Origin: Sphingomonadaceae bacterium
GTDB lineage: Bacteria > Pseudomonadota > Alphaproteobacteria > Sphingomonadales > Sphingomonadaceae
Reading direction: 5' to 3'
DNA: 64,000 nt
NCBI GenBank assembly: GCA_947454135.1
Contig: CANGJI010000001.1
Span: 62,001 to 126,000, forward strand
Shown here: in pieces, positions 25,360 to 40,323 of the stretch
How positions within the stretch are numbered: the stretch's first letter is position 1
Layout: each line of letters starts with the position of its first letter
Program-made: the position numbers and the translations under genes
The notes under the pieces: model-generated
Told to the model about the DNA's origin: nothing
Seen by the model: the letters and a program-made list of their open reading frames with translations, nothing else
The model's database searches: none

Positions 25360-26202
25360 TCAGAGGGCATGGCCCGAACTGCCCGCGCCGCCATCGGGCC
25401 TGCGTTCGTTATAGAGATTGATCACGGCAGCCGCAGTTTCCTCGATGGATCGCCGTGATACGTCAATCACCGGCCAGCCGTTATCCGCGAACATGCGCCG
25501 TGCATACTGGACTTCCCGCGCGACATGATCGCTATCGACATAAGCGGTTTCCGGCGCCTGGTTCAGCGAGAGCAGCCGGTTGCGACGCACCTGGATCAGG
25601 CGCTCGGGGCTGGTGGTGAGCCCGACCACGAGCGGCCTGCGCAGACTGAACAGGGCAGGCGGCGGCGGGCTTTCAACGACGATCGGAATGTTGGCGACCC
25701 GGTAGCCGCGGTTGGCGAGATAGATCGCGGTCGGCGTCTTCGATGAACGTGACACCCCGGCGAGGAGGATATCGGCCGCTTCCCAGTCCTCCCAGCCGAT
25801 CCCGTCATCATGCGCGATGGTGAACTGGATGGCTTCGACCCGCCGGAAATAGGCATCGTCCATCGCATGCTGACGGCCGGGACGACCCTTGGCCGGCTGG
25901 CCCAATTGCGCCTCGAGGGCGAGAGTGACCGCATCAAGCGCCGGGACGCTGGGAAGGCCGAGCGCGGCACAGCGGCTTTCAAGCAGGGCGCGCGTTTCGG
26001 CATTGACCATGGTGAACAGCACGAGTCCGGGATTGGCGGTGATTTCCCCCATGATCCGGTCCAGATGTTGCTGCGAGCGGACCATCGGCCAGAAATGGCG
26101 CACCACATCGGCATCGTCGAATTGCGCGAGAGCCGCCTTGGCAATCATTTCAAGCGTTTCACCGGTCGAGTCCGATAGAAGGTGCAAGTGCAGACGCGGC
26201 AT
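25360..26202 (-). CDS. Pyruvate, phosphate dikinase regulatory protein (DUF299/PPSR)
   Basis: 280 residues. LHLLSDSTGETLEMIAKAALAQF at the N terminus and the P-loop-like GVSRSSKT (149-156) followed by PTAIYLANRGYRVANIPIV identify the DUF299 family, bifunctional ADP-dependent kinases/phosphorylases that switch pyruvate phosphate dikinase or PEP synthase off and on. Which of the two it controls is unclear. The ATG at 26202 is selected because relatives begin MPRLHLHLLSDSTGE. It is the first leftward gene beside the presumed replication origin, as in Caulobacter. Confidence 0.93.
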   Translation of the reverse strand: MPRLHLHLLSDSTGETLEMIAKAALAQFDDADVVRHFWPMVRSQQHLDRIMGEITANPGLVLFTMVNAETRALLESRCAALGLPSVPALDAVTLALEAQLGQPAKGRPGRQHAMDDAYFRRVEAIQFTIAHDDGIGWEDWEAADILLAGVSRSSKTPTAIYLANRGYRVANIPIVVESPPPPALFSLRRPLVVGLTTSPERLIQVRRNRLLSLNQAPETAYVDSDHVAREVQYARRMFADNGWPVIDVSRRSIEETAAAVINLYNERRPDGGAGSSGHAL

Positions 26203-26253
26203 GGGGCTTCCTGATCCGCTCCGGGGAAGGAGCTTTCGCCCCCGGGAGAAGGC

Positions 26254-26262
26254 TGTGGAGAA
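26254..26262 (-). promoter_or_regulatory. DnaA-box-like 9-mer (TTCTCCACA)
   Basis: One mismatch to TTATCCACA on the minus strand. It is the leftmost of four related 9-mers in the presumed origin, 52 bp upstream of the PPSR start. Confidence 0.45.
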
Positions 26263-26289
26263 CAGGAGGATAAACCACGGCACGAAACC

Positions 26290-26398
26290 GGGGACAAGTT
26301 TGCACTGCGATTGTGCCCCCGGCTTCCGCGTCTGGCCCCGTCAGTTGCGAACAGCGCGGCAAGGTTACCCACAGGCCGGGGAGAACGGGGACAAGTTT
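26290..26398 (+). repeat. Direct repeat of GGGGACAAGTTT in the presumed origin
   Basis: The identical 12-mer is at 26290-26301 and 26387-26398, each preceded by a C- and G-rich base run. A 12-base perfect repeat within a 356-bp gap is unlikely by chance and could be a second class of initiator or regulator site. Confidence 0.5.
26365..26373 (+). promoter_or_regulatory. DnaA-box-like 9-mer (TTACCCACA)
   Basis: One mismatch to TTATCCACA on the plus strand, inside the presumed origin between the two copies of the 12-base repeat. Confidence 0.5.
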
Positions 26399-26440
26399 CG
26401 CTTGCCCCTGCAACTGTTCAGAGTCGCTGACACACTTTCT

Positions 26441-26449
26441 TGTGGAGAC
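26441..26449 (-). promoter_or_regulatory. Weak DnaA-box-like 9-mer (GTCTCCACA)
   Basis: Two mismatches to TTATCCACA on the minus strand. It is included because it lies in line with three better boxes; alone it would not be convincing. Confidence 0.3.
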
Positions 26450-26484
26450 GGCGGGACAATTCGGGCACACCCCGTTCGTCCCCG

Positions 26485-26493
26485 CTATCCACA
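26485..26493 (+). promoter_or_regulatory. DnaA-box-like 9-mer (CTATCCACA)
   Basis: One mismatch to TTATCCACA, positioned 18 bp before the A/T-rich tract, as expected for a box that helps open the duplex. The same 9-mer occurs in the dnaB upstream region at 55730-55738 (minus strand). Confidence 0.55.
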
Positions 26494-26510
26494 GGGCCAA
26501 CAAACAACCT

Positions 26511-26545
26511 CAATCTGATTCAAAAGAATCTATAGATTTGATTTG
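26511..26545. other. A/T-rich tract with two GANTC sites, possible DNA unwinding element
   Basis: About 26 of 35 bases are A or T, contrasting strongly with the surroundings. GATTC at 26517-26521 and GAATC at 26526-26530 are targets of the alphaproteobacterial cell-cycle methylase CcrM. The tract lies immediately before the hemE start and may also supply hemE promoter elements. Confidence 0.5.
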
Positions 26546-26558
26546 GACCGACTGCCTG

Positions 26559-27596
26559 ATGTCTGACCCTGCCGCCAAGCCGCTTCTCGCCACCCTCAAG
26601 GGGGCCAATCTTTCCCGCCGTCCGATCTGGCTCATGCGCCAGGCAGGACGCTACCTTCCCGAATACCGCGAACTGCGTGCCGAGAAGGGCGGGTTCCTCG
26701 CACTGGTCTATGATTCCGCAGCCGCTGCGGAAATCACCCTCCAGCCGCTGCGCCGCTTCGGTTTCGACGGGGCGATCCTGTTTTCGGATATCCTGATCGT
26801 GCCCTATGCGATGGGTCAGGATCTCCAGTTCCTCGCCGGTGAAGGCCCCGCGCTCTCTCCCCGCCTCCTCGATGTGGGCCTGGAGACGCTCAGGAGCGTG
26901 CCTGAGCGCCTTTCGCCGATCTATGATACCGTGGCGCAGGTCAGCGCTGCTTTGCCGCCTGAGGCGACCATGCTGGGCTTTGCCGGCAGCCCCTGGACCA
27001 TCGCGACCTACATGGTCGCTGGCGAAGGCAGCCGCGACCAGCACGACACCCGCGCGCTCGCCTACCGCGATCCCGGCGCGTTTCAGGCGATCATCGATGC
27101 CATCGTCGATGTCACGGTGGAATATCTCAGCGGGCAGGTGAAGGCCGGCGCCGAAGGCCTCCAGCTGTTCGACAGCTGGGCCGGCAGCCTTGCTCCCGCC
27201 GAGTTCGAGCGCTGGGTGATTGCGCCCAATGCGCAGATCACCGAAGCGATGCACAAGCTGCATCCCGAAGTACCGATCATCGGCTTCCCCAAGGGCGCGG
27301 GCGAAAAGCTGGTCGCCTATGCTGAGGGTACGGGTGTGGATGCCATCGGTGTCGACGAGACAATTGATCCGGTCTGGGCGGCCAAGAGCTTGCCCGCCGG
27401 GCTTCCGGTGCAGGGCAACCTCGATCCGCTGCTGCTGCTGGCGGGTGGGCCTGCTTTGGAAGACGGTGCGCGCCGTGTGCTCGACGTGTTTGCCGACCGC
27501 CCGCATGTGTTCAACCTTGGCCACGGCATCGGGCAGTTCACGCCGATCCCGCATGTCGAGCGGCTCCTCGAAGTGGTGCGGGGCTGGTCGCGCTGA
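26559..27596 (+). CDS. hemE: Uroporphyrinogen decarboxylase
   Basis: Decarboxylates the four acetate side chains of uroporphyrinogen III to give coproporphyrinogen III. The 345-residue product has the N-terminal signature RRPIWLMRQAGRYLPEYRELRA, FGFDGAILFSDILIVPYAMG, FAGSPWTIATYMV, DSWAGSL and the C-terminal NLGHGIGQFTPIPHVERLLE. The frame stays open leftwards through the origin, but the ATG at 26559 gives the family N terminus. hemJ follows 95 bp downstream. hemE beside the origin is a feature shared with Caulobacter and Rickettsia. Confidence 0.96.
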   Translation: MSDPAAKPLLATLKGANLSRRPIWLMRQAGRYLPEYRELRAEKGGFLALVYDSAAAAEITLQPLRRFGFDGAILFSDILIVPYAMGQDLQFLAGEGPALSPRLLDVGLETLRSVPERLSPIYDTVAQVSAALPPEATMLGFAGSPWTIATYMVAGEGSRDQHDTRALAYRDPGAFQAIIDAIVDVTVEYLSGQVKAGAEGLQLFDSWAGSLAPAEFERWVIAPNAQITEAMHKLHPEVPIIGFPKGAGEKLVAYAEGTGVDAIGVDETIDPVWAAKSLPAGLPVQGNLDPLLLLAGGPALEDGARRVLDVFADRPHVFNLGHGIGQFTPIPHVERLLEVVRGWSR

Positions 27597-27691: not shown

Positions 27692-28135
27692 ATGATGCAG
27701 GTTCTCGCGATGCTCTATCTCTGGCTCAAAGCCGGCCATGTCATCTTCGTGATCTTCTGGATGGCGGGCCTGTTCATGCTGCCGCGCTTTTTCGTCTATC
27801 ATCAGGAAGCGGCTGAAGGTTCGCCCGAAAACGCGATCTGGGTCGACCGCGAGCGCAAGCTGATGAAGATCATCATGTGGCCTTCGCTGTTTGCGGTCTG
27901 GGGCTTCGGCCTCGCTCTGGCGGTAAGCGGGGAGTGGTACACGCAAGGCTGGTTCCATGCGAAGCTCGCGATGGTGTTCGTCCTCACCGGCTACCACATC
28001 TGGCTGGCAGGCTATGCGGCAAAGCTGGCACGGGGCGAGCGGCAGCTGACCGGACGGCAGCTGCGCCTGCTCAATGAGATACCCGGCGTGACCGCAGCGG
28101 TGATCGTTATCATGGTGATTGTGAAGCCGTTCTGA
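27692..28135 (+). CDS. hemJ: Protoporphyrinogen oxidase HemJ
   Basis: 147 residues with about four hydrophobic helices. AGHVIFVIFWMAGLFMLPRFFVYH at the N terminus (His16 a likely heme ligand or catalytic residue), KLMKIIMWPSLFAVWGFG and WFHAKLAMVFVLTGYHIWL are the conserved HemJ (UPF0093) blocks. It oxidises protoporphyrinogen IX to protoporphyrin IX in the inner membrane. Neighbouring hemE suggests a small heme cluster. A second ATG one codon later (27695) is an equally possible start. Confidence 0.93.
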   Translation: MMQVLAMLYLWLKAGHVIFVIFWMAGLFMLPRFFVYHQEAAEGSPENAIWVDRERKLMKIIMWPSLFAVWGFGLALAVSGEWYTQGWFHAKLAMVFVLTGYHIWLAGYAAKLARGERQLTGRQLRLLNEIPGVTAAVIVIMVIVKPF

Positions 28136-28302
28136 GCCGTTTCCAAGGCCGTTCTGCGATTGACGCCCCGTCTGGTGGGGCCTATGCGCCGTGAAGCAAT
28201 CCGGTTTCCGGCAGCGCTTTCAGGCCCTGCCCCCTTTGGTCCGCTTTCCCCAAGCCCAATGACCTCCCGGCGCGCGCAGTTACCCCAATTCGGACAATGC
28301 CC

Positions 28303-29581: not shown

Positions 29582-29965
29582 TCAGGTGTTCTGCAGCGCC
29601 GCCGCCATCATCTCCCACAGCTTGTTCATGGCCTTGAGGGGCCGCACCATCACCTTGAAATCGACGATCTTTCCATCAAGATCGAAGCGGATCAGATCGA
29701 TGCCGTTGACGTGGATGCCGTCGACGGTAGCCGTAAACTCGAGCAGGGCTTCGGGCCCGTCGACAAGTTCGCGGACATAGGTGAAGCCGGTATCGGAAAA
29801 GACCTGGCCCGCGGCAGTCAGGTACATCAAGACCTTCGCATGGCCTTCCTGCGGCGTATGCACCACCGGCGAGTGGAACACGGCATCGGAGGCGATCAGG
29901 TCTGACAGCAGGGCGGTGTCGCCGGTCTGCATGTAGCGGTGCCAGGCGGCGAGGCCGGTGTGCAT
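29582..29965 (-). CDS. NTF2-like (SnoaL-type) protein
   Basis: 127 residues, cone-shaped alpha+beta fold of the nuclear transport factor 2-like superfamily: WHRYMQTGDTALLSDLIASDAVFHSPVV at the start, then FTATVDGIHVNGIDLIRFDLDGKIVDFKVMVRPLKAM. Such proteins bind small ligands or act as isomerases or hydrolases; no specific role can be given. AAGGAGAGAG lies before the ATG at 29965, which decides the start against a longer open frame. It converges on rho. Confidence 0.75.
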   Translation of the reverse strand: MHTGLAAWHRYMQTGDTALLSDLIASDAVFHSPVVHTPQEGHAKVLMYLTAAGQVFSDTGFTYVRELVDGPEALLEFTATVDGIHVNGIDLIRFDLDGKIVDFKVMVRPLKAMNKLWEMMAAALQNT

Positions 29966-30059
29966 GGGGTCTCTCTCCTTGTCGTCGTGTCGCGGCCTTG
30001 TGGCACGCACGCGCGCACCAGCCATTGATCCAGCGCAGGTTTGCGCTAACCCTGCGGCC

Positions 30060-31202
30060 ATGACAACCGTTTCGCCGGAAGCCCTCATCACCGAAGCCCT
30101 GGCTGCGCTGCGGGCGCGCAATCCGGCACGGGCGGCTGAGTTGCTGCGCGAGGCAAGCGGCGCCATCGCAGCAGAACGTATGCCCTGGCCTGCGCTGGCA
30201 CAGGCCGAACTGGCGCTGGGCAATCATGCGAACGCGGAAGCAGCGCTCGACCGGCAACTTGAACTTGCCCCCCGCGATGTCGGCGCTCTGCTCGCCAAGG
30301 GGCAGCTGCGGCAGCGTGCGCGCGATGATCGCGCGGCGGTGAGCTTCTATACGACGGCGCTGGCGCAGGCCGGTGTAAGCGGTGTGCCACGCGGCATGGA
30401 AGCCATGGCGGCAACGGCGCAGGCCTTCATCGGCGAGGCGCAGGGTGCGTTTCAGCGCCATCTCGACCACGTCATGGCGGGCGGACTTTCTCCTGCGATG
30501 GAAGAAGCGCTCGGGCTGCTCAAAGGTACGCGTGAGATCGACCTGCAGCAGCCATCGCTGTTCTACTATCCGGGGCTGCCGCAGCGGCGCTTCTATGATC
30601 CAGCCGAGTTTGGCTGGATGGAAGCCGTGCTCGATCTCTTGCCGCAGATGCAGGCAGAGCTTGCCGCCGTGATGGCCGATGAAGCTGCCGATACCTTCGC
30701 GCCCTACGTCACGGCAGGTCAGGACCGGCCTGCACCCAACAATCCGCTGCTGGGCGATCCCTCATGGGGCGCGTTCTATTTCTGGAAGGACGGCGCCCCG
30801 GTGGAGGCCAACGCCGCGCGGTGCCCGGCTACCATGGCAGCCTTGGCCCACGCGCCGATGCCAATGATTCCCGGCCGTGCGCCGAATGCACTGTGGTCGC
30901 GGCTGAAGCCCGGTACCCACATCATGCCGCACACCGGCATGCTCAACACGCGGCTGATCTGCCACGTGCCCATCCGTACTGCGCCCCGTTGCACGCTGCG
31001 GGTGGGCAGTGAGACACGGACCTGGGAGCCTGGCGTTCCGCTGATCTTCGACGATTCGATGCAGCACGAAGCACGCAACGCGGGTCCGGAGACGCGCACC
31101 GTGCTGCTGTTCGAGATCTGGCGTCCCGAAGTGCCCGAGGAAGACCGCGCCGCCGTGGCCCGGCTGCTCGAAGGCATCGCGGGCTACGACGGGACAGCCT
31201 GA
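30060..31202 (+). CDS. TPR and aspartyl/asparaginyl beta-hydroxylase domain protein
   Basis: 380 residues. The first half (ALRARNPARAAELLREASGA, AELALGNHANAEAALDRQLELAPRDV) forms TPR-like helices, and the second half contains the AspH/LpxO-type dioxygenase domain, with SRLKPGTHIMPHTGMLNTRLICHVPI (first iron His) and FDDSMQHEARNAG (second His). It should be a 2-oxoglutarate/iron-dependent hydroxylase acting on a protein or lipid. The substrate is unknown. The ATG at 30060 begins the TPR part cleanly; the Shine-Dalgarno is weak. It is divergent from the NTF2-like gene. Confidence 0.8.
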   Translation: MTTVSPEALITEALAALRARNPARAAELLREASGAIAAERMPWPALAQAELALGNHANAEAALDRQLELAPRDVGALLAKGQLRQRARDDRAAVSFYTTALAQAGVSGVPRGMEAMAATAQAFIGEAQGAFQRHLDHVMAGGLSPAMEEALGLLKGTREIDLQQPSLFYYPGLPQRRFYDPAEFGWMEAVLDLLPQMQAELAAVMADEAADTFAPYVTAGQDRPAPNNPLLGDPSWGAFYFWKDGAPVEANAARCPATMAALAHAPMPMIPGRAPNALWSRLKPGTHIMPHTGMLNTRLICHVPIRTAPRCTLRVGSETRTWEPGVPLIFDDSMQHEARNAGPETRTVLLFEIWRPEVPEEDRAAVARLLEGIAGYDGTA

Positions 31203-33631: not shown

Positions 33632-33647
33632 TGTTCCACGTGAAACA
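33632..33647. promoter_or_regulatory. parS: parS site 1
   Basis: TGTTCCACGTGAAACA, a full match to the TGTTNCACGTGAAACA pattern recognised by chromosomal ParB proteins. It lies in the short gap between mnmE and mnmG, starting directly after the mnmE stop, about 3.4 kb from the parB gene and 7 kb from the presumed origin. Confidence 0.93.
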
Positions 33648-35550: not shown

Positions 35551-36239
35551 GCATCGCGAGCGAACAGGACGCCCGTGAGTGGCTCGCGGCACGTCATGCC
35601 GATGCGATGGCGCGGCTGGATGTGCTGGTCGGTGCGTTGCGCGAGGAGAACGAGCGGCAGAACCTTGTTTCGCGGCCTTCTCTCGATGCGGTGTGGCAGC
35701 GCCATATTCTGGACAGCGCACAGCTGCTCCATGTTTCACGTGAAACAGTTTCGCCGGGCCCGTGGCTCGATCTTGGCAGTGGGGCCGGGTTTCCGGGTCT
35801 CGTCATCGCGGCGCTGGAGCCGGAACGTCCGGTGACTCTCGTCGATTCGCGGCGGCTGCGGACGGAATGGCTGGCCCGCGCCGCGACCTTGATGGGCCTT
35901 GGGAATGTCGAAGTCGTGCTGGCCCGCGCCGAGGATCTTGGTGAGCGGCAGTGGCATGTCATTTCAGCCCGCGCGTTTGCGCCGCTTGACCGCCTGCTCG
36001 AGATAGCGGCAGGCTTTTCCACACCGGAAACCTTGTGGTTGTTGCCCAAGGGCGCCAAGGCGCAGCATGAGCTGGATACGCTCGGTGCAGAGTGGAATCG
36101 AACGTTCCACGTGGAACAGTCGTTGACCGATCCCTCGGCGGGCATCATCGTTGGCTATCTGCAGGGTCGTCTGCCCCGGCAGGCCGAAACAAGACGCACT
36201 GGCAAGACTGCATTACGCAAGCGAGGTTCAGGTCGATGA
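35547..36239 (+). CDS. rsmG: 16S rRNA (guanine527-N7)-methyltransferase RsmG
   Basis: Methylates G527 of 16S rRNA; loss gives low-level streptomycin resistance in other bacteria. The 230-residue product has [23 protein letters not shown], the SAM-binding [32 protein letters not shown] and [16 protein letters not shown]. Two parS-like palindromes are embedded in the coding sequence and are read as HVSRETV and TFHVEQ. The Arg/Lys-rich C-terminal tail is somewhat longer than in relatives. It overlaps mnmG and parA by ATGA junctions. Confidence 0.95.
35732..35747. promoter_or_regulatory. parS: parS site 2, inside rsmG
   Basis: TGTTTCACGTGAAACA, a perfect 16-bp palindrome and the canonical chromosomal parS sequence, also that of Caulobacter. 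It lies in the rsmG reading frame (encoding V-S-R-E-T), so both the protein and the DNA site are conserved together. Confidence 0.96.
36103..36118. promoter_or_regulatory. parS: parS site 3, variant, inside rsmG
   Basis: CGTTCCACGTGGAACA, with the perfect 14-bp palindrome GTTCCACGTGGAAC as core. The palindrome is of the variant type reported for several chromosomal ParB systems. It encodes T-F-H-V-E-Q in rsmG, about 120 bp before the parA start. Confidence 0.8.
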
Positions 36240-37012
36240 TCACGATAGCCGTCGCGAACCAGAAGGGCGGGGTAGGCAAGACCACCACGGCGATCAACAT
36301 CGCCACGGCGCTGGCAGCCACCGGATGGAAGGTTCTGCTGATCGATCTCGATCCGCAGGGCAATGCCTCGACCGGGATCGGCGTTTCCGCAGCCGAGCGC
36401 GAGCGGTCGTCCTACGACCTCCTCATCGAGCAGGCGAGCGTGGCTTCCTGCATGATCCCGACGCGGATTCCCGGGCTCGACCTTGTCCCGGCGACCGTGG
36501 ACCTCTCCGGCGCCGAAGTCGAACTGGTCACTGTGCCGGACCGTACGCACCGGCTGCGCACCGCGCTGGCCGAGGATTCCGGGCACGAAATCTGCCTGAT
36601 CGATTGCCCGCCGTCGCTGGGCCTGCTCACGCTCAATGCGATGACAGCGGCGAACTCGTTGCTCGTGCCGTTGCAGTGCGAGTTCTTCGCGCTCGAAGGG
36701 CTGAGCCAATTGCTCCAGACGGTGGAGCGCGTGCAGGAGCGGTTCAATCCGGACCTCGGCATTCTCGGCATCGTGCTGACCATGTTCGACCGGCGCAACC
36801 GGCTGACCGATCAGGTCGCGGACGATGTCCGTTCGTGCCTGCATGGCCTGGTGTTCGAATCCGTGATCCCGCGCAACGTGCGGCTTTCCGAAGCGCCGAG
36901 CCATGGTCTGCCGGCGCTGATCTATGACCATGCCTGCGCCGGATCGCAGGCCTACATGAAGTTGGCGCGCGAGCTGATCGGCCGCCTGCCTGAACGGAGA
37001 CAAGCGGCATGA
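36236..37012 (+). CDS. parA: Chromosome partitioning ATPase ParA (Soj type)
   Basis: 258 residues. The deviant Walker A motif KGGVGKT at 10-16, LLIDLDPQGNAS and the Walker B LIDCPPSLGLLTLNAM identify the small chromosomal ParA/Soj class without an N-terminal DNA-binding domain. It binds DNA non-specifically with ATP and pulls ParB-parS complexes toward the opposite pole. The ATG at 36236 overlaps the rsmG stop. The C-terminal FESVIPRNVRLSEAPSHGLPALIYD is typical. Confidence 0.97.
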   Translation: MITIAVANQKGGVGKTTTAINIATALAATGWKVLLIDLDPQGNASTGIGVSAAERERSSYDLLIEQASVASCMIPTRIPGLDLVPATVDLSGAEVELVTVPDRTHRLRTALAEDSGHEICLIDCPPSLGLLTLNAMTAANSLLVPLQCEFFALEGLSQLLQTVERVQERFNPDLGILGIVLTMFDRRNRLTDQVADDVRSCLHGLVFESVIPRNVRLSEAPSHGLPALIYDHACAGSQAYMKLARELIGRLPERRQAA

Positions 37013-37950
37013 GCGGCGAAGCGGACGGAACGGCAGCGAAGGCGGCGAAGCGGCCGGCGCTGGGCCGTGGTCTCGGTGCGTTGCTGGGTGAGACGCGGCG
37101 CGAGGAAGCGGTGTCGCGCATTTCGGTCTCGGCGCCGGGCGAGGCGGTGACGAGTGGCCTTGCCTTGCTGACGGTTGCCTCGATCGAGCCGCACCCGGAG
37201 CAGCCGCGGCGGCACTTCGATGAAGATGCGCTGGAAGAACTGGCGCGCTCGATTGCGGCGCGGGGCGTGATCCAGCCCGTGGTGGTGCGGCCAATCGGCG
37301 GCGGACGCTACCAGCTGGTCGCGGGTGAGCGACGCTGGCGCGCGGCGCAGCGGGCGCGCTTGCACGAGCTTCCGGCCATCGTGCGCCAGCTTGACGACCG
37401 TGAAGTGACAGCGTTGGCGCTGATCGAGAACCTCCAGCGCGAGGATCTCAATCCGATCGAAGAAGCCCGCGCTTACCAGCGGCTGTCGGAGCAGGACGGG
37501 CTGACCCAGCAGGAAATCGCGACCTTCGTCGACAAGTCGCGCAGCCACGTCGCGAACCTGATGCGTTTGCTCGTGCTGCCCGGCGAAGTGCTTGATATGG
37601 TCGAGCGCTCGCAGCTTTCGATGGGCCATGCGCGTGCGCTGGCCGTGCTGCCCGATCCGGTGCCGCTGGCCCGCGAAACGGTGGCCAAGGGGCACTCGGT
37701 CCGCGATGTCGAGCGGCTGGCCAAGCGCGTGCTGCGCCCCGAATCGGCGCCCCGCCGGGCGCGGGCCGTGCGTGATCCGGCCAACTCGGCGGACATCGCT
37801 GCGGTCCAGGCCCATCTCGAGGAATTCCTCGGTCTCAAGGTCACGATCCAGACGGACGCCGATCCGCGCACGGGTGCGGTGACGATCCGCTACAAGACGC
37901 TCGATCAGCTCGATCTGATTTGCCAGCGCCTCACTGGCGGGGAGATCTAG
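37009..37950 (+). CDS. parB: Chromosome partitioning protein ParB
   Basis: 313 residues. RPALGRGLGALLGE at the N terminus is the ParA-interacting Box, GERRWRA at 106-112 is the CTP-binding box II, LIENLQREDLNPIEEARAYQRL follows, and the helix-turn-helix LTQQEIATFVDKSRSHVANLMRLL recognises parS. The C terminus is the dimerisation domain. It loads at the three upstream parS-like sites and slides as a CTP-dependent clamp. The start overlaps parA by ATGA; the two are one operon. Confidence 0.97.
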   Translation: MSGEADGTAAKAAKRPALGRGLGALLGETRREEAVSRISVSAPGEAVTSGLALLTVASIEPHPEQPRRHFDEDALEELARSIAARGVIQPVVVRPIGGGRYQLVAGERRWRAAQRARLHELPAIVRQLDDREVTALALIENLQREDLNPIEEARAYQRLSEQDGLTQQEIATFVDKSRSHVANLMRLLVLPGEVLDMVERSQLSMGHARALAVLPDPVPLARETVAKGHSVRDVERLAKRVLRPESAPRRARAVRDPANSADIAAVQAHLEEFLGLKVTIQTDADPRTGAVTIRYKTLDQLDLICQRLTGGEI

Positions 37951-39264: not shown

Positions 39265-40323
39265 ATGCGCACGCGGACAGGACCTTGCCTGAACCCGCGT
39301 GCGCATTGCCGCATGCTCGCAGCAGGCTTCGGCCTGTTGCTGGCAGCCAGCTCAGCGCCCGCCACGGCGCAATACGATCCAGATTCGGATGACGTGGTGA
39401 TCGAGGAGGTGGGGACGCCTCCTCCTGCTCCATCCACGTCCTATCGCAGCGGTGTGGTCCCCGCCGACGAACCTGCCTGGGCCAACACCGCTTCGCTTTA
39501 TACCGTGCCGCCCGATCCGGCCCAGTGCCAGGCTGGCGTGCTGCGACCAGAGACGAAGTACCGCTTTCTGGCGGCGTTCAATGCGCTGCGGGCCCGTCAT
39601 GGCCTGTCCCCGGTGCGCTACAACGAAGGGGCTGATCGCGCTGCTGGTGAAGCGGCTCTGATCATGGCGACCAACAACGCGCTCAGCCACGATCCGCCCT
39701 CGAACTGGACGTGCTGGACGGCAGCCGGTGCCGGTGCTGCGGGGAGCTCCAACCTGCTCGGCGGCGTCTCTTCGCCCTATCTGAGCTACGAGGATGATAA
39801 CGGCATTCTGGCCGAGTGGCTCATCGAAGGCGATAGCGACGAGATTGGCCACCGCCGCTGGATGCTGGATCCCTATCTCGATCAGACCTCGCTTGGCCGC
39901 GTCATCGCGGTCCTGCCCGGCGGCGTCAGGGTCGATTCAGTGGTCATGAAGGTGTTCGACTTTCCCGGAAAGGCGCCGCGCAGTGGGGGTGATCCGCGGA
40001 TTCCGGACTTCGTGGCCTGGCCGCAAGGCGAATATCCGCAGCAATTCTTCTCACCACACGCGCGGCTTTCATTCTCGGTCAGCCAGGACCCGGATGAACT
40101 AACCAACGTTGATTTCTCCGACGCCCGCGTTGCCATCAGCGACGGCCAGCAGACACTTCCGGTGCGCGATCAGCGCTGGGATAACGAGGGCTACGGAGTG
40201 GCCAATTGCCTATCGTGGCGAGTCGATGGAATCGTGCCCGGGCGCACTTATACCGTAACGATCACCGGCGTTCGTGATGCTCCGCGGGACCGATACGATT
40301 ACACTTTCCGCATCACCAATTAG
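39265..40323 (+). CDS. Secreted CAP-domain protein
   Basis: 352 residues with a signal peptide ending near ATAQYD. The CAP/SCP core is visible as [45 protein letters not shown] (catalytic-like His) and ILAEWLIEGDSDEIGHRRWMLDPYL (second His and Glu). A beta-rich C-terminal domain of about 90 residues follows (LSFSVSQDPDELTNVDFSDARVAI ... YTVTITG), perhaps an Ig-like fold. Bacterial CAP proteins have no settled function. The ATG at 39265 is chosen because it precedes the signal peptide directly. Confidence 0.8.
   Translation: MRTRTGPCLNPRAHCRMLAAGFGLLLAASSAPATAQYDPDSDDVVIEEVGTPPPAPSTSYRSGVVPADEPAWANTASLYTVPPDPAQCQAGVLRPETKYRFLAAFNALRARHGLSPVRYNEGADRAAGEAALIMATNNALSHDPPSNWTCWTAAGAGAAGSSNLLGGVSSPYLSYEDDNGILAEWLIEGDSDEIGHRRWMLDPYLDQTSLGRVIAVLPGGVRVDSVVMKVFDFPGKAPRSGGDPRIPDFVAWPQGEYPQQFFSPHARLSFSVSQDPDELTNVDFSDARVAISDGQQTLPVRDQRWDNEGYGVANCLSWRVDGIVPGRTYTVTITGVRDAPRDRYDYTFRITN

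Follow-up and report, generated by a model that had tools for sequence, protein, structure and literature searches.

A very probable chromosomal replication origin of the hemE type between PPSR and hemE in a Sphingomonadaceae genome

In a Sphingomonadaceae genome, the divergent genes PPSR (pyruvate, phosphate dikinase/PEP synthase regulator) and hemE are separated by a short gene-free gap, and the question is whether this gap is the chromosomal oriC or only a regulatory region shared by its two neighbours. The gap was analysed within a window of 64,000 nucleotides on contig C1 of the assembly, and compared with the corresponding gap in relatives. The gap is almost certainly the chromosomal oriC, of the hemE type of the alphaproteobacteria, as judged from its sequence and that of its relatives. 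Support for this assignment, already made in a preliminary description as an oriC of the sphingomonad type, comes from the clustering of DnaA boxes, an A/T-rich element, the nearby parS and parAB, the same gap in relatives and the change of sign of the GC skew in one relative, G220.

The PPSR-hemE gap and its neighbourhood

The flanking gene starts were picked by homology, with the PPSR proteins of relatives aligning from residue 1. PPSR, which we take to be COG1806/DUF299, is thus a minus-strand gene beginning at 26202, and hemE has its ATG at 26559, so that the 356-bp gap described earlier between these divergent genes is exact (Table 1). Mechanically called open reading frames extend deeper into the gap than these starts, one to 26283 and the other from 26313. 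The left side carries dnaQ-coaE-aroE-maf and the right side rho, mnmE, mnmG, rsmG and then a ParA-like and a ParB gene, all backed by NCBIfam or Pfam matches. This agrees with the gene order given previously, which had omitted hemJ (27692-28135, right of hemE, with a score slightly below the NCBIfam cut-off) and an open reading frame at 29958-31202 between rho and mnmE. The latter matches OlsC/LpxO-like hydroxylases in its C-terminal half, and about 200 residues ahead of the matched half are unexplained.

Table 1. Features of the PPSR-hemE gap and its surroundings (window coordinates)
Feature	Position	Strand	Evidence
oriC candidate, PPSR-hemE intergenic gap	26203-26558		gene starts, family matches, box clustering, alignment, A/T content
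PPSR (Kinase-PPPase), left flank	25360-26202	-	NCBIfam NF003742, 5.2e-95; PF03618, 1.6e-90
hemE, right flank	26559-27596	+	TIGR01464, 9e-111
W-box-like TCCCC(G)	26223-26227	-	this part of the gap absent from most relatives
DnaA box TTCTCCACA	26254-26262	-	CCACA core kept in 72/77 aligned gaps
DnaA-like box TTATCCTCC	26265	-	2 mismatches
ATAAACCACGG, most conserved block; minus-strand GTTTAT as candidate -10 of a leftward PPSR promoter	26270-26280		alignment, spacing
W-box-like TCCCC(G)	26290-26294	-	motif match
CTTGTC, candidate -35 of the PPSR promoter	26293-26298	-	offset constant in 71/74 gaps holding the core
DnaA box TTACCCACA	26365-26373	+	CCACA core kept in 56/77 aligned gaps
W-box-like TCCCC(G)	26378-26382	-	motif match
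W-box-like TCCCC(G)	26387-26391	-	motif match
GAGTCG, CcrM (GANTC) site	26421-26426	+	GA[GT]TC[GT] in 77/77 gaps
Weak DnaA box GTCTCCACA	26441-26449	-	CCACA core kept in only 29/77 aligned gaps
W-box-like TCCCC(G)	26479-26483	+	motif match
DnaA box CTATCCACA, adjoining the A/T-rich element	26485-26493	+	CCACA core kept in 77/77 aligned gaps
A/T-rich tract, presumed duplex unwinding element	26510-26544		77% A/T; GANTC sites at 26517 and 26526
parS, perfect GTTTCACGTGAAAC	35733-35746		further copies at 33633 (one mismatch) and 36104 (two mismatches)
parA-like gene	36092-37012	+	family match
parB	37009-37950	+	family match

The assembly itself (G000) comprises 151 contigs and 3.39 Mb and is 93% complete; the best matches to its PPSR protein are from Novosphingobium, and its dnaA sits on another contig (C22), away from the gap. 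A comparison of 25800-27000 with Rfam gave no RNA gene match up to E = 1, and a strict scan of 26150-26600 reported neither terminators nor sigma-70 consensus promoters. When a plasmid collection was searched at distant similarity with 26100-26700, nine records were returned in which coding pieces alone matched, namely a piece of PPSR in one and an early piece of hemE in eight, five of which have no annotated gene there.

DnaA boxes, relatives and GC skew

Over 136.7 kb of contig C1 (C1:60001-62000 left out), ten boxes lie within one mismatch of TTATCCACA, three of them inside the gap where 0.025 would be expected (Poisson 2.7e-6; about 100-fold excess). Within two mismatches there are 133, with five inside the gap (expected 0.34; Poisson 2.8e-5), and another place on the contig, near 40040, likewise has five. 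The window as a whole shows no excess of such boxes (61 versus 56 expected), and thus it is their clustering rather than their number that matters. No perfect TTATCCACA occurs within the gap. All four of the DnaA-like boxes named in the preliminary description were recovered, clustered above chance, but that at 26441 proved weak. Among the 77 aligned gaps, 64 have boxes within one mismatch, and CCACA/TGTGG reaches 13.2 per kb, as against 1.3 per kb in the plain intergenic gap between hemJ and rho in 53 of the same rows. The weak W-box of Caulobacter has the consensus TCCCCA (review, PMC4285127); TCCCC[AG] occurs at 8.0 per kb in the 77 gaps, compared with 1.9 per kb in the 53 hemJ-rho gaps and 1.2 per kb across the whole loci.

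Next to the last box lies the only 35-mer at 77% A/T among the 63,966 in the window, and the richest of all, in keeping with the tract of about three-quarters A/T noted before; on its composition alone it is presumed to be the unwinding element. On the right-hand side, parS and the parA and parB genes are 7-12 kb from the gap, and strain MW5 likewise has parS-like sites 7-10 kb from its own gap. A search of the window for parS at up to three mismatches gave three matches versus 1.3 expected, a number reached in 9 of 100 shuffles.

The same arrangement recurs in relatives, which were taken as the best 80 loci of a longer list from a PPSR protein search. The order PPSR-gap-hemE was found in 77 of the 78 loci among these best 80 that reach far enough; L019 and L050 were excluded, as their sequences end before hemE. 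In the remaining full-length locus, L052 (Novosphingobium sp. isolate Xx448_bin32), PPSR has no hemE in the preceding 3 kb, which reflects either a gene order broken at the origin or a misassembly. The alignment consists of 77 rows, namely the window and 76 loci, with L043 (a 562-bp gap) omitted for its length; as the rows are mutually related, 77 of 77 stands for fewer independent events.

Across the order, 27 of 30 chosen genomes have PPSR, and 25 of these 27 share the gap, which measures 295 to 973 bases (ends approximate) and holds at least one DnaA-like word in 23 of the 25. For the remaining two, the match to PPSR starts at base 154 and base 60 of contig 1, as if these records had been opened at the origin gap. 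No PPSR was found in the near-complete same-family genomes G095, G104 (genus g13) and G202 (genus g35), which seem to have lost one flank of the origin. The longest gap, of 973 bases (L173, on contig C2 of genome G075), is about three times the usual length and seems to contain an insertion, with what may be a short reading frame on the side of PPSR.

Conservation was compared with that of the hemJ-rho gap (window 28136-28296), using those 53 of the 77 rows in which hemJ and rho could both be located. Columns conserved at 95% number 59 of 356 in the origin gap versus 28 of 161 in the control, no better at the origin, and mean identity (0.53 versus 0.48) and the best 10-mer (0.97 versus 0.93) are only slightly higher there. 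Conservation of the gap as such was therefore dropped as an argument for an origin. The hemJ-rho gap has conserved blocks of its own, such as GATTGACG and CTTTCCCCAAGCCC, which are perhaps a rho leader or promoter.

As the assembly is in 151 contigs, a full skew curve could not be drawn and relatives were sampled instead. In G220 (a single contig of 2.72 Mb, 20-kb samples), the ten samples that run from 2.38 Mb across zero to 0.93 Mb were all negative and the nine from 0.98 to 2.10 Mb all positive, with that at 2.24 Mb about zero and slightly negative. PPSR lies at 0.966 Mb, and the sign thus changes at the orthologous gap; a 200-kb run gave a minimum near 0.976 Mb, about 10 kb from the gap. 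G118 was sampled at 19 points along a contig of 2.64 Mb. Its skew was negative in all 12 samples between 0.60 and 2.10 Mb and positive in the following three (2.25-2.55 Mb); the sample at base 1 gave a negative value, and those at 0.15-0.45 Mb, three in number, gave positive ones. Its PPSR lies at 2.073 Mb, with a fine minimum at 2.126 Mb (about 50 kb off) and a second low at about 2.054-2.078 Mb. Contig C1 itself has a skew of -0.011 to the left of the gap and +0.037 to the right. The minimum of its cumulative curve is flat, extending from about 72 to 88 kb, and its lowest point, near 72 kb, is 16 kb away from the gap. In MW5 (40 samples), the skew was too noisy and weak to place a minimum and showed no clear flip; the gap of this strain has no box within one mismatch and five within two. 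Taken together, the skew favours the gap at a resolution of tens of kb. The proposed check by skew was thus borne out in G220 and roughly in G118, while MW5 was uninformative.

These results bear on the view that the gap is merely the divergent regulatory region of PPSR and hemE and that the origin lies elsewhere, for example at dnaA. A density of DnaA-like cores roughly tenfold that in the control gap is hard to reconcile with it, even if the control is nearly as conserved and a CTTGTC-N17-GTTTAT element faces PPSR at a constant offset in 71 of 74 gaps, as a regulatory region would have it. The looseness of the skew in two of the three relatives (G118 and MW5) also suits that view, but in G220 the skew flips at the orthologous gap. 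The dnaA locus (L086, 3483 bases) was rejected as a rival origin, with no box within one mismatch and five within two. Overall, we consider a purely regulatory role of the gap highly improbable.

With the gap as oriC, the course of initiation may be sketched from the sites themselves, their conservation, the skew change in relatives and the flanking genes, all of which were observed directly. DnaA would bind the stronger boxes (26254, 26365 and 26485) together with the weaker TCCCC sites in between, oligomerise toward the A/T-rich tract beside hemE and open 26510-26544. Replication would then fire and depart bidirectionally, and the parS/ParAB region 7-12 kb away would segregate the new origins.

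Promoter-like blocks and the GANTC site

The most conserved 10-mer of the gap is ATAAACCACG at 26270, with 97.7% mean identity over the 77 rows. On the minus strand, CTTGTC (48 of 74 rows) or a close variant of it is followed after 17 nt by GTTTAT (72 of 74). The constancy of this spacing led us to prefer a promoter over a regulator site for this block, and ATAAACCACG is probably part of the promoter of PPSR, which the strict sigma-70 scan does not report. The gap thus has two near-constantly spaced blocks that look like promoters facing outward, one toward PPSR and, less clearly, one toward hemE.

If the gap is an origin, the same block could instead be a variant DnaA box or bind a regulator of initiation. 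The agreement of TAAACCACG with TTATCCACA at six of nine positions, the near-invariance of ATAAACCACG and the silence of the strict promoter scan would fit such a role, as would the single exact ATAAACCACGG in the whole assembly, but the 12 one-mismatch places bring its total to 13, the same as for the reversed control at up to one mismatch. Several other genera, inspected by eye, have a different sequence at this position, and the constant 17 nt to CTTGTC on the PPSR-facing strand suits a promoter better. Across the order, 111 of 296 genomes, from 34 of 79 genera, contain ATAAACCACGGG, as against about 71 of the 296 for the reversed word (counted by eye); the present genome scores as a miss, its last base being C. 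Of 30 loci fetched by this search, five are in a PPSR-hemE gap, comprising five of the six from the family of the window and none of the 24 from other families. This points to an origin feature within the family and not one of the whole order, and the order-wide count is not a count of origins. A new regulator site is thus less likely than the PPSR promoter, and we regard it, or a variant DnaA box, as unlikely, the more so in view of these fetched loci.

A second conserved element may bear on the timing of replication. The CtrA site TTAA-N7-TTAA is not present in the gap even at one mismatch; the exact form occurs in none of the 77 aligned gaps and in one of 25 more distant gaps, and looser or half sites, taken in the forms TTAACCAT/ATGGTTAA, are likewise found in none of the 77. 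CtrA control through such sites at this gap was therefore rejected. In contrast to these missing sites, 26421-26425 reads GA[GT]TC in 77 of 77 gaps (49 with G, 28 with T), followed by G in 75 and T in two. GANTC reaches 13.3 per kb in the gaps versus 1.7 per kb in the flanks, a ratio of 7.8; the corresponding ratios of other palindromes of the same form are 0.7 to 1.1 for six and 2.8 for one. In the hemJ-rho gap, GANTC occurs at 2.4 per kb, with at least one site in 19 of 53 rows. These two comparisons were relied upon, since a reversed-sequence control (78 rows, L043 included) is a poor one in that the reversed word is rare in itself.

The genome encodes a CcrM homologue of 384 aa (best PDB match CcrMI 6pbd, 3.9e-157). 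GcrA (PF07750) was not found in the 93%-complete assembly, which is one of four misses among 41 genomes of the genus; with GcrA present in the other 37, its absence is ruled out as a trait of the lineage and is probably an assembly gap. An extended methylation motif, YGAKTCK, has been proposed for Caulobacter GcrA, while B. subvibrioides showed no preference for it (PMC7987155). All 77 gaps have GAKTCK, but just 25 of them also have the leading Y, which in the window is an A. TTG[AC]NN stands 18 or 19 nt ahead of the GANTC site in 57 of the 70 pairs found; inspection by eye gave no -10 box after this block.

It is conceivable, though doubtful, that the Novosphingobium/Erythrobacter lineage has lost direct CtrA sites and times oriC through its invariant CcrM site by a promoter of the GcrA type. 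The TTG[AC] block that precedes the GA[GT]TC[GT] by 18-19 nt would point at hemE, fork passage would leave the CcrM site hemimethylated, and a methylation-read promoter within oriC would make transcription across the unwinding element depend on how old the origin is. If true, this would be a once-per-cycle timer with a logic like that of Dam/SeqA in E. coli, but acting via transcription. A methylation-read promoter inside oriC is a guess, and published results count against it. One of them is the missing preference for the extended motif in B. subvibrioides. Overexpressed CcrM does perturb the chromosome content of Caulobacter, but the enzyme, unlike Dam, is dispensable for initiation (review, PMC6090056). 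In Sphingomonas melonis, CtrA is said to have an influence on replication. The dispensability of CcrM in Caulobacter and this influence of CtrA led us to lower our confidence in a methylation timer. Nor is GANTC at origins a new idea, since repABC origins are rich in it (review, PMC6090056); it is also generally enriched between genes in alphaproteobacteria. In literature titles and abstracts, which are weak evidence of absence, no description of a conserved GANTC site in a sphingomonad oriC was found. The missing CtrA sites together with a CcrM site invariant in 77 gaps make the question of replication timing a concrete one.

Comparison with known origins

In the basal unwinding system, a DnaA box is followed by a spacer and DnaA-trios (PMC8287927). 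The gap resembles this in that the last DnaA box, at 26485, is followed by a short spacer and then the A/T-rich tract. CTACTA repeats of the DnaA-trio type are absent from the window; six of the 77 near gaps have them, as do six of 25 more distant gaps.

Sphingomonad origins had been called much less studied than that of Caulobacter, which fits the papers found as far as experiments are concerned, but their location has already been predicted for Sphingopyxis and Novosphingobium. In Novosphingobium sp. PP1Y and N. aromaticivorans, of the same or a near genus, the origin was predicted near hemE, thus in the same place, with three DnaA boxes by Ori-Finder (PMC4059872). It was also called close to dnaA there, whereas the dnaA of the present genome is on contig C22. 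For Sphingopyxis granuli TFA, an origin was predicted beside hemE, and likewise in DoriC for most Sphingomonadaceae (PMC4741004). Like the present one, these predicted origins occupy the same position within a conserved gene order and combine several DnaA boxes with a putative unwinding element; that of strain TFA belongs to a different genus, and the main text passages of that paper make no mention of a methylation site. The published origins found for the family are predictions, to which the present analysis adds an exactly annotated oriC.

The closest parallel is with Cori of Caulobacter crescentus, which lies between hemE and COG1806 (DUF299) and has five CtrA sites; the flanking genes are the same in Rickettsia (PMC1914354). 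Cori and the gap share their two flanking genes, DnaA boxes, weak boxes of the TCCCC type and an A/T-rich element. They differ in the CtrA sites, of which the gap and its 77 aligned counterparts have none of the TTAA-N7-TTAA form, and in the strong boxes, which here are unlike the TGATCCACA G-box of Cori. An oriC of the hemE type has long been known for this class, and the gap between PPSR and hemE is an ordinary, well-supported instance of it in a new genome.
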